From NCBI GenBank assembly GCA_024516035.1, contig CM044958.1, positions 25,186,727-25,250,726 on the forward strand: a DNA stretch of 64,000 nucleotides, written 5' to 3'. The notes under the pieces are model-generated. The model was given only the letters and a program-made list of their open reading frames with translations, had not been told where the DNA came from and searched no databases. The first letter of the stretch is position 1, and each line of letters begins with the position of its first letter. Below are positions 46,201-52,200 of the stretch, piece after piece. This stretch comes from Bactericera cockerelli (lineage: Eukaryota > Arthropoda > Insecta > Hemiptera > Triozidae). A program made the translations under genes and the position numbers.

Positions 46201-49200
46201 GCGTTCACTGAGGTAGGCAGCATGGACGAGGGCTCCTCATCCTCCAATGAATCCTCCAGTTCGAGTGAGTCCAGTGGTGGCAAGAAGAAAGACGCCGCCC
46301 ACACCAATGGAACCCCCGCTCCCTCGCCCCAACCCCCGGGGGGCGGGGCCAAGTCTTGGGCGGAGCTGCGCGAGATAGTAAACGAGTTGCGGCGGAACCT
46401 GTCGAGTCTGTCGACCATGGTCCCCACTTCCATCTCCTTCAGGAAACTCACCGATGGGCGTACCCGAATTTTCTTCCTGAGCACACCCGCGAATGGGTGG
46501 GAAACCACCCTGTTGTACGCAGACGTGCCCAGTGAGGACGACACTCACCCCGCCCGTCACACCCTCCAGTGGCAACCCGTCATTGAAGCCAACTTCCAAA
46601 GCATTTCGCTGGGTGAGACAATTTTCAGATCTCTTTTTTATTTATTTTTTATTATTATTTTTTTTTAATGTGCATCAATTAATAATTGTTAACACACTAC
46701 AAAGGAGTTAGTAAATACAATAAATACATACAAATAGTAAATACATAGTAAATACAAATACATAGTAAAAAAAAAAAAATCTCCTCCGACTAGATATACA
46801 ATAATATAAATACCTACATATCTGTTGATCACGATTGTTTGAGGGTTCCGAAATAGGGTTCCCGTTGGCCTAGGAAGTCAAGCAAACTGTCAAATCAATT
46901 TATTTTTCGACGCAGAGTCCATTTCTGTAATAAAAATTGCAGTTTTTGAAATTTATGTTAAACTTTTCGCTGGCTGAAAGTACATGAAATGCATAGAACT
47001 ATGTTTTCCGTTACCTTACACTCTGCCGCGCTGTCTCTTTCTTTGTATAGGCGTTCTTCGCACCTCGGCCGAGGTGTTTGATATCGGAACTTGTAAAGAA
47101 CTCAATGGCATATTATATAATATGCCATTGAGTTTATAATAAGTTTATGTCTTTAATCCAGACGAGCTATTTTAACCTCCTAATGTACTGATGTAAGCCA
47201 ACGTCTAAAGCGTATTGAATACACTAGTTTTTGTGAAATCACTGTTTTACTTCTGATAGTATCAAAGATATCGGAAGTATTGTGTTTTTTTTTTTTTTTT
47301 TTTTTTTTTTTAGTAAAGAAAAAAATTCATATTTCTGGATTTATCATAATTTGCATTCTAATCTAATCTACATCTACAGAAAACACATGTAAAACTCTAA
47401 TTTTAGGCTTAAATAACAAGAGTTGAAATTTTGAAAGGAAATTCTTCTTGCAATGTACAATGTATACATTTGTATACATCTACAGAAAACACATGTAATG
47501 TCCCGGTAGCTCAGTGGTAAAGGTGGCACTCTATGAATCCAGAGATTCCAGAGGTCGCGGGTTCGAAACCCAGCCGGGACATGACAAGTTATCCTCCCAT
47601 TTTGAATTTTTACCACATAATAATACGTCTTGTGATTACTGCTGGAATAGTGGGACATAATAGTCCTAATCGGGCAGTATAAATAAGGCGATATTATTAT
47701 TATTATTATTGTATGTAGGTACACTATGAGAAAGAACTTGCATAAAAAACTTCCACTCGAGCCCAGTTGAGACTGGTTAAAACAAAGTATGATTATCCAT
47801 AAACGCGAAACTCACTTACTGATAGATCAAGAGTTCATTGCCATTTGATTGCCATTCAAAGGGGCAATGTCATCATGCATGACATCACTGTATACCTACA
47901 CAACCTAATTATTGCAAGCCATACTCTGCTAATATGGAAAAATGACTTTCACCTGATCCAATGGTTTGAATGCACATTTTTTTGAGAGGCTTAATCGAGA
48001 GAGTATGAAAAACAATGAAATTTTATCTAATCACTTTCCACCTGCGAATTTTCATTCCGAGAAAATGTAGTTTTAAATCGAAAATTTTAATGTTTGATAA
48101 CACGATAATTTTTGGCAGGAAAGAGCTATCACTTCAAGGTATCTCTTGTCCTTATTTTACATTATGAATTTCCACTTAAAAAGTCCAGATTCTTATCAGT
48201 ATCACATTTTTTGTTCATTTAGGTCACGGCCGGTAGGTACGCGTTCTTGTTCGTTCAAATTTGAATGGTCTTTAGGAAGCATTTTTCGATTTTTACTTTC
48301 CTTATCCGCTAATAAAAGGAAAGTATTGTATTCGTTGAAAACTTGACCTACCCAGTTTTTCTGACTTTACATTCGAGTTCTATGGGTGATTTTACATCAA
48401 TTTGAGATATAAGATCATATCTAGTATGGGATGCAACTTGCTCAGACACTGTCGCTCCATCACATGTTGAATTGTCTAGCAGAGGTGTTGCAGGAGTAGC
48501 TGAGATGGTAGCAACAAAAAAGAGAGCGAAATACAGAAATTTGACAGACAACCACCTGTTTGTCCCATTTGCGGTAGAAACAATGGGTCCCTGGTGTGAG
48601 GAAGCTAAATGTTTCATCCAAGACCTCGGGAACCTCCTCACATCTGTATCAGGTGACAAAAGAAGTCATGAGTTTTTACGACAAAGGATATCGATTGCAA
48701 TACAGAAAAGCAATGCCGCCTGTGTAATGGGCACAATACCCTATTCCTCTAGCATGGAGGAAATTTTTTACATTTTGTAAATTGTATGAATACAAACCAA
48801 TTGTAAGATCATATATTTCAGTGGGTTAATGTCACACGCGACTTGTATTCCAGGGAGTCGCTACTCGCGGGAAGAGCAGCTGATGCTGGAGCGCAAGCGT
48901 CTGGCTACATTCGGCATCACGAGCTACGAGCTGCATCAGGAGAGTGGAAAGCTGGTGTTCCCTGCGGCCAGCACCCTGTACCAGTGCTTCGACTCCGGAT
49001 ATACGGTGAGTATTCTCAGATATACGGTGAGTATTCTCAGATATACGGTGAGTATTCTCAGATATACGGTGAGTATTCTCAGATATACGGTGAGTATTCT
49101 CAGATATACGGTGAGTATTCTCAGATATACGGTGAGTATTCTCAGATATACGGTGAGTATTCTCAGATATACGGTGAGTATTCTCAGATATACGGTGAGT

Positions 49201-52200
49201 ATTCTCAGATATACGGTGAGTATTCTCAGATATACGGTGAGTATTCTCAGATATACGGTGAGTATTCTCAGATATACGGTGAGTATTCTCAGATATACGG
49301 TGAGTATTCTCAGATATACGGTGAGTATTCTCAGATATACGGTGAGTATTCTCAGATATACGGTGAGTATTCTCAGATATACGGTGAGTATTCTCAGATA
49401 TACGGTGAGTATTCTCAGATATACGGTGAGTATTCTCAGATATACGGTGAGTATTCTCAGATATACGGTGAGTATTCTCAGATATACGGTGAGTATTCTC
49501 AGATATACGGTGAGTATTCTCAGATATACGGTGAGTATTCTCAGATATACGGTGAGTATTCTCAGATATACGGTGAGTATTCTGGTGTTCCCTGCGGCCA
49601 GCACCCTGTACCAGTGCTTCGACTCCGGATACACGGTGAGTATTCTCAGCCGACCAGAACACCAGAAGATTTCAATATGGCAACAGTGCTATGTTTGCTA
49701 TGTTGGCTCAAAGTGAAAATACAAATTTCGATAATGAGAGCAGTATCCATGAGAGTGAGAGGAGCGAGACAGAGGATCAGAGGGATTTAATGTGAAGATG
49801 GTGCAGGAATGGGACGAGTAGAAGAATGATACATTAATGTTTAACTTTTGTATATAAAAAAAAATATAATAAAAATATTTAAAGTTTTGATTAAAAAAAA
49901 AAATAAAAAAATATGGCAACAGTCTGCGGCCTGCGCGCATCGTTTTGCTATCGTAACATTCAATTTAATAAGGGAAGAGTACATCTGAAAGTAATTATTT
50001 AAAAGTAAATAATTTATGTACATCTATTCGAGCAATATAATGAAAATCACCAATAAAAAATTGACAAATTCGGTCCAAGATTTTTTTTTTTGTCAAATGG
50101 GAAAAATGAGGGAACTTAATTAGGAAAAAAGCGTATTCATAACTATTAACTCTGTCTAATGCACACCTTCTATTATATGTATAGTTGTATAGTATACTGA
50201 CTGTTGAAAATGATAAATGTACATAATGATAAAGGGTTGGGTGGAAGAGATTGTAACCCCGCCTTTTAGGTAGGACATTAACTTTATTCTCTTTTTTTTT
50301 TTCCTGTATCTTTGCTTAATCTTATTGTTTTTCTTTATAATTTCATTCTATTTTACTATACAGTATGTATATTTGTTCTACCTAAGAAAGCTTACTATAA
50401 TATAATAATAATACATTCCCTTGTGTTTCCAGAACGGACCCTTGTTCCCCGCCGAGCTTCGAATGAATGCCTCAGGCGCTAAACTGTCCCCCCAGATCTG
50501 TCCGTCGAATCCAGACCTCGTAGCTTATGTTTGTAATTGTGATATTTGGGTCTCCCACACGTTGACTGGTAAGTTTCTCTTCTTTTTTTAGACTCTCAAC
50601 CTGGAACACAAAGGAAGTCCTGTGAAGTCAACATCCCTGTATAACTGAAATCTGTGCCTATGTATTATTTATATAAAAATAAAATAGTAAGACAGCTATT
50701 TTTATACTGCCCGACTAGGACTAATGAGTTCTATTATTCCAGCAGTAAGTCCAAGACGTATTCTTGTGTGGTCAAAATCCCTAATAGAACTTATCAATTC
50801 TGGGATGGGTTTTGGCCTATGGTATTCGCCTGTTACGAATACCATAGGCCGAAATGTAATAGATATTGAAATTTTCATGAGAATCATGTTTTTTAATAAG
50901 TGGCAGTTCCACACCGGAAAAATGTTGTTTATAATAATAAAAGAAAGGTAACCACCTATCAAGGTTAATGCTCAAAGCATTTTCTACCACCTAACCCTCA
51001 AAGTCTTATTATTATGTAGTCACAAACTTAAGTTCATTAAGAAAAATTCATGCAATTTACTTCATGTTAACAAAATTGATTAAAAAAATTAAATTTGAAT
51101 TTTGACTTTAATGTTGGTCCGACCAACAATAAGGTGCCACTTTAAATTTTAACGTCCGAGTAGAAGTTAAATGGGTAAATCAATTGTTGTGCGACTATTG
51201 AGTTTGACTTTACAACACTATAGGATTGCGTAAATTTTAGAACAATAACTTCTCAGGACGTATGTAGAAACATTAAAAATTTCTAACATTTAAGGTGGGC
51301 ATTTATGTTATTAGGTCACAACTGTAGTGGATAGCTCAGCAATACGAATCTCAAATTTAGTCTTTTTTTCATCCAAATTTTATACTCTTTCTTGTTATGC
51401 CGCCACTACTCATACACATATGTAGCTTCTCGGTTTTCCTCACGAGAGTGGACCCCGGAATATGGATGAAAGCTTACCTCCCAAAAAGTTAAGTTTAGGA
51501 GGTGATCCAAAATGTATATTTTCTTGATGTAAATAAATTTGCCCTATTTTCAATTCAATTCAAGTATAAAGCAGAAAAATTCTGCGCTTGTCACCGTCAT
51601 TTTAGGAAGGCAAACTCTGAGAACTCATAGTGACTTGTGTTATATTTTCAGGGAGTACTCAGCGTCTGACGTTTGCTCACAAGGGCGGCAGAAACCTCAC
51701 GGATGACCCCCTGGCGGCAGGCATTCCCTCCTACGTGACTCAGGAGGAGTTCAGTCGCTACCAGGGCTACTGGTGGCAGCCCAGCATGACAGGTCAATGA
51801 ACTTCCTACCTCTCAGTCATGAGGCTTTCAATTTAAAGCGTTCTGTAACCTTGAATTAGCTTAGTTGAATAGGTCTTGACAAAGACGGAGCTTTGTTTGT
51901 TGATTGATACTGTACTCAAAAAGAATTTGCTTTCTTTTGCCGTTCGTAATATCATTAATATGTAACATTGATCATATACGATCTTCAGTGTGATAGTATC
52001 TCTGAAGGGTATTCAAATATTTTTTGCATCGGCAGTCAGCTAAATATTCCACGAACCTACTTTGCTTTAGAATTTTCCAAAATTAAACATATCACCTGAT
52101 GTGGTCACATTTTTACTTACTATTACAAGGTATAGAAATATTGTTTTCGGTCGGTTTTTTCGAAATTGAGTTGATAACATTTCTGCATCAATTAAACTCT

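Follow-up and report, generated by a model that had tools for sequence, protein, structure and literature searches.

The closest described counterparts of the repeats considered here are the 'mirages' of lancelets, in which an exon/intron boundary is duplicated in tandem in the manner of a minisatellite; the passages of PMC3087553 and PMC3902484 that deal with them give Adh3, the globins, troponin C and PGBD5 as examples. The minisatellite of the human gene IFI6 (6-16) provides several splice donors, and splicing from two units further along the repeat is reported in PMC4526556, which cites Turri et al. 1995. A related model, that of Rogers, attributes intron gain to the tandem duplication of AG/GT sites, as outlined in PMC3087553. 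Human IFI6 and lancelets were the precedents found in the open-licence literature, in which no insect precedent was found.

Here, we describe an array of 5' splice sites (donors) at the end of exon 2 of a DPP8/9-like gene in the psyllid Bactericera cockerelli. The gene is contained in a 64,000-nucleotide stretch of contig CM044958.1, referred to as the window, and positions are those of the window unless an assembly coordinate is given. The array, array 1, is a minisatellite that originated from a splice junction and, as such, probably a mirage.

The DPP8/9-like gene

The 11-exon gene model is complete and, by sequence homology, encodes a DPP8/9 peptidase that includes both the propeller and the catalytic domain (Table 1). 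Residues 42-872 align with human DPP9 chains (E 4.7e-223), and Peptidase_S9 and DPPIV_N of Pfam are matched exon by exon, with the match to the N-terminal Dpp_8_9_N falling under the cut-off (20.9 of 27 bits). When the long isoform was used as the query, the top protein match was DPP9 of Cacopsylla melanoneura, with 93% identity over 66% of the query.

Table 1. Positions of the gene, its relevant exons and the arrays
Feature	Position	Strand	Remarks
DPP8/9-like gene, putative ATG to stop	46222..61921	+	11 exons, 872 aa, no stops
Exon 2	48854..49005	+	gene model
Array 1	48998..49583	+	21-bp unit GATATACGGTGAGTATTCTCA, 27.9 copies, 28 donors
Terminal 63-bp block	49584..49646	+	second copy of 48954-49016, holds 29th donor (49636)
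Exon 3, phase 0 acceptor	50433..50568	+	gene model
Exon 7	54748..54919	+	supplies the exon portion of array 2; authentic donor at 54920
Array 2	55071..56150	+	61-bp unit, 17.7 copies; 18 GTAAGT-like donor sites, 55109-56146
Exon 8	56975..57187	+	acceptor adjoined by a 30-bp array in the second gene copy
Second-copy acceptor arrays (loci L004-L005)	G000:C4:25382753-25383146 and 25385780-25386284		at exon 8; near exon 10

Several other features of the window were noted. Intron 1 holds a 124-aa open frame near the exon 2 acceptor (48406-48777), which gave no Pfam match at E 0.01 and by eye resembles the end of a reverse transcriptase. Outside the gene, Pfam matches were obtained to LEM-3_GIY-YIG at 24119-24574 (-) (E 4.4e-33) and to DDE_3 at 39007-39462 (+) (E 1.3e-06). 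Two stretches resemble tRNA-Thr, at 17031-17109 (-) and 59478-59561 (+); the latter is intronic, has an Rfam match too and is probably SINE-derived.

A ladder of identical donors at exon 2

Tandem Repeats Finder reported array 1 with a period of 21, 100% matches and a score of 1172. Each unit consists of 7 nt of exon followed by 14 nt from GTGAGT on and so spans the exon/intron boundary. Direct counting gave 29 GTGAGT donors, the first at 49006. Successive donors lie 21 bp apart in 27 cases, and the final step is 63 bp; all of the donors read ACG/GTGAGTAT. The terminal block differs from its source in the exon at one position across the 64 columns compared.

All 29 donors are in phase 0, within an open exon frame that spans 48790 to 49716, and joining each of them to exon 3 produced no stop through that exon (0/29). 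The first donor yields the protein of 872 residues and the last yields 1082, or 210 more. The computed U1 duplex of an array 1 donor, at -11.4 kcal/mol, is the strongest among the ten donors of the gene model. Pairing is equal for all 29, as computed for the first donor and three array sites, the remaining donors having identical letters. These results bear out the original prediction in its description of the locus: about 29 identical, strong, phase 0 donors at 21-bp steps, an open frame that could accommodate up to 210 added residues, and a repeat born from a splice site. Array 2, the second gene copy and the similar arrays elsewhere in the genome had been overlooked.

Chance is excluded as the origin of array 1 by its length and identity. 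No special RNA fold was evident: the minimum free energy of array 1 is -168.1 kcal/mol, whereas 60 shuffled-unit arrays averaged -194.8 (45/60 as low or lower), and a search of 40000-64000 against Rfam gave one tRNA-like match and none within array 1.

A second array in intron 7

Array 2 follows the same plan at another junction of the gene. Its unit copies the last 33 nt of exon 7, continues with GTAAGT and ends with 22 more bases. In 8 of the 16 units counted, the exon part is identical to the exon 7 end at 33/33 positions, and at 30-32 in the rest. U1 pairing at 16/18 of its sites (-6.8 to -7.4 kcal/mol) is close to that of the authentic donor (-7.0), the two weaker sites being at -1.4 and -4.3 kcal/mol. 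A frame that continues beyond the authentic donor runs into a stop after 10 codons, and use of an array 2 donor would therefore truncate the protein; the 61-bp unit is no multiple of three.

The two arrays share the 13-mer GTRAGTATTCTCA, which was considered as a common element; beyond them, just the shorter GTRAGTATTCT turned up, once as the gene-model donor at 53779 and once at 56174. The window has 41 occurrences of the shorter motif on its + strand and 0 on its - strand.

Two gene copies with different copy numbers

A genome search with array 1 returned one further region, ~138 kb downstream. The two regions (G000:C4:25166727-25409000) run colinear for ~100 kb, interrupted by many indels; a 100-N gap lies between them, and aligned blocks of 700 bp or more are 87-99% identical. 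The second is probably the other haplotype, left unpurged in the scaffold; a true duplication is possible.

The gene in the second region is intact, encoding 871 aa, with 33 nucleotide substitutions (one residue-changing) and one single-residue indel. Its arrays are of other lengths. Exon 2 is followed there by 5 donors (4 units and, after them, the same block) compared with 29 (28 units) in the window, a DNA length difference in keeping with the original prediction, and array 2 comprises 30.7 units compared with 17.7. Acceptors carry arrays as well: one of 30 bp x 13.2 reaches the AG of exon 8, a site at which the window holds the unit once, and units of 27 bp lie near exon 10. The differing copy numbers suggest that the arrays are length-unstable, and the intactness of the second gene suggests that the gene stays constrained whether exon 2 ends in 5 or 29 donors. 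A chance estimate of 3.2%, calculated for a 30-bp unit placed no more than 5 nt from a junction, was too weak for four arrays to count and was discarded as an argument.

Just beyond array 1 in the window lies a 223-bp insert (49688-49910) with an A-rich end and a second copy of its 13-bp target, ATATGGCAACAGT (at 49675 and 49911); the target is single in the second gene copy. By its look, the insert would be a recent retro-insertion.

The second copy also bears on the reality of the ladder. Assembly artefact is unlikely as the source of array 1, because a separately placed copy shares its architecture with a different copy number. That the copy number itself arose in assembly or polishing, as 28 units without a mismatch and a region seemingly present twice across a 100-N gap might suggest, is very improbable, since the second place combines the same architecture with variants of its own and internally varied arrays are present elsewhere in the genome.

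Donor arrays across the genome

The 565-Mb assembly was searched for three GGTRAGT with 8-38 bases between them. Such donor triplets number 18,323 (8,699 + 9,624). The reversed pattern gave 2,421, a scrambled heptamer 3,817 and the reverse of that heptamer 6,155, which makes the excess over the three same-composition controls 3.0 to 7.6 fold. The counts are of triplets rather than loci, such that long arrays weigh more, and part of the excess could come from a few large satellites; 3 of the 5 distinct places among the scrambled-pattern matches listed are arrays that themselves hold GGTGAGT. Acceptor-like triplets number 1,188 (572+616) compared with 753 (402+351) for their control, and because this excess is weak, the effect is mainly one on donors.

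Seven array places lie among the donor-triplet matches listed, which cover the first 5.1 Mb of contig C1. Their unit lengths are 37, 26, 26, 32, 25, 28 and 34 bp, none of the seven a multiple of three; the 28-bp array looks like a tRNA-derived element, and the locus L022 consists of three 37-bp units. A single gene accounts for both L024 and L046, which lie 814 kb apart. Its coding exon end TATGAG/GTGAGT leads into a series of 24 or 14 donors, depending on the copy, at a spacing of 26 bp and, in L046, also of 34 and 35 bp. On a reading frame based on open-frame continuity rather than homology, joining to the next exon leaves the frame open from donor 1 only, and donors 2-24 and 2-14 bring a stop.

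Array 1 is thus apparently one of many such repeats in the genome. The same process acted on other donors regardless of frame, as shown in this one other gene and suggested by the genome-wide counts. The original prediction had taken the seven-codon unit to be kept for its coding compatibility, a proposal that is not supported, given the 61-bp unit and stop of array 2, the other gene with its frame open at donor 1 only and the seven listed places. Frame neutrality as a sign of selection was rejected on account of array 2 and the 26-bp array of the other gene; at array 1 it looks accidental, since array 2 would truncate the protein and the later donors of the second gene break the frame.

How the arrays may have grown

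The two bases ahead of both 63-bp pieces are CT, a 2-bp microhomology. Growth probably began with the 63-bp tandem duplication of 48954-49016, after which a 21-bp piece inside the first 63-bp copy would have expanded via slippage or unequal exchange. In either gene copy, exon 2 and its terminal block agree in a synonymous base, GCG in the window and GCC in the other. In exon 7, a synonymous base that differs between the copies (GTG/GTC) is G in 8/16 units of array 2 in the window and C in 28/28 second-copy units, a count that leaves out one 63-bp unit. Within the two gene copies, array 2 units diverge from each other by 4.1% and 4.4%; units from different copies diverge by 5.3%. These two sites, thin evidence as they are, hint at exchange between a coding exon and its array.

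Which donor is used

We think it likely that this mirage is for the most part silent at the protein level, with the first donor mainly used and the product an ordinary 872-aa DPP8/9. Exon definition would make the first donor the main one despite equal U1 pairing, and array 1 would be removed with intron 2. If splicing leaked to the donors that follow, VSILRYT repeats would be added without a frameshift, because the unit happens to be 7 codons, and minor isoforms of +7 or +14 residues, plausible by analogy to IFI6, may be tolerated.

Several observations point to the first donor. Array 2 and the gene with the 26-bp array keep open frames only if their first donors are used. Furthermore, the proteins of two psyllid relatives, C. 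melanoneura and Cyamophila willieti, are without the insert, SGYT being directly joined to NGPL, and in a model of Diaphorina citri GYT runs into an intron that lacks the repeat. The stretch at the junction keeps a length of 21 residues in 116 of the 121 insect DPP8/9 sequences that were aligned. No repeat-bearing protein was found among the best 120 of 2,506 matches to the long isoform, and a query of exon 2 plus array gave 11 matches with coverage of at most 29%, of which four were inspected. The genes of the psyllid relatives may be without the array. Counting against first-donor use are the equal U1 pairing of all 29 donors and the use of downstream donors in IFI6, and a preference of SRSF1 for intron-proximal donors, which the part of PMC5585400 concerned with it describes as one that SRSF1 can exert, would favour a late donor of array 1.

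An alternative, and the main idea of the original prediction, is an IFI6-like use of the ladder, in which exon 3 at 50433 is spliced to several of the donors and alleles differ in the n x VSILRYT isoforms that they give. Such use would fit the shared phase 0 with 0/29 stops, the even U1 pairing, the different copy numbers of the two gene copies and the precedent of IFI6, whose repeat unit of 12 bp is likewise a multiple of three. We nevertheless regard it as unlikely, given a loop whose length is constant in nearly all of the relatives aligned, the absence of an insert-bearing protein among the best 120 matches, and arrays inside and outside the DPP8/9 gene that are unusable without a stop.

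In a regulatory role, array 1 would serve U1 as a sink or decoy, delaying splicing or retaining U1 as a guard against early polyadenylation of the transcript, and copy number would tune expression. Such a role would draw on the many strong U1-complementary sites gathered in one intron: the + strand of the window has 42 GT sites at -11 kcal/mol or lower, and 29 are in array 1. We regard it as very improbable; the other gene copy is equally intact with 5 donors.

Mainly first-donor use therefore remains our preferred account of exon 2. On a broader scale, we would suggest, with considerable doubt, that 5' splice sites are genome-wide nuclei of tandem amplification with a donor-linked cause (e.g. 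U1, R-loops or transcription-coupled breakage/repair), that gene conversion returns array sequence to coding exon ends, and that downstream donors yield allele-dependent heptad inserts if the unit length is divisible by three, as it is in DPP8/9.

Comparison with known systems

It is the wide, donor-biased growth of repeats, rather than the idea of variable protein length, that is the interesting part of these observations. If donor arrays are as common as the counts suggest, the genome is a natural test bed for the choice among dozens of identical splice sites, and it bears on why repeats start at donors and on how introns are gained when boundaries are duplicated. Up to now, such questions have been associated mainly with lancelets and a single human gene. 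The DPP8/9-like gene itself amounts to a ready-made experiment, the same exon having 5 donors in one intact copy and 29 in the other.

The original prediction saw in the ladder a new way to make protein length polymorphism; with the precedents of IFI6 and the lancelets, it is not new in kind. What is added to the known kind is probably an insect case at several junctions of one gene, together with the pair of gene copies and the genome-wide, donor-biased excess of spaced triplets.

Compared with IFI6, as far as the cited account describes it, the tandem unit likewise has a donor at the exon end and keeps the frame, which in the psyllid holds for array 1 only. The unit is different, at 21 bp, the other donor arrays of the psyllid genome are not frame-neutral, and downstream donors, reported as used in IFI6, are candidates here. 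The Rogers model, in its outlined form, shares with the psyllid locus a duplicated segment with a splice signal inside a gene, but here an existing donor is multiplied and no new intron is seen. The likeness to the lancelet mirages, going by the passages cited, lies in splice signals within the units, intact genes and effects on both donor and acceptor sides; length differs between haplotypes in the lancelets and between two gene copies, probably haplotypes, in the psyllid. Unlike the mirages of lancelets, that of B. cockerelli is found in an insect, has 28 perfect copies touching the exon and a 7-codon unit, and adds to them a counted genome-wide excess of donor over acceptor arrays.
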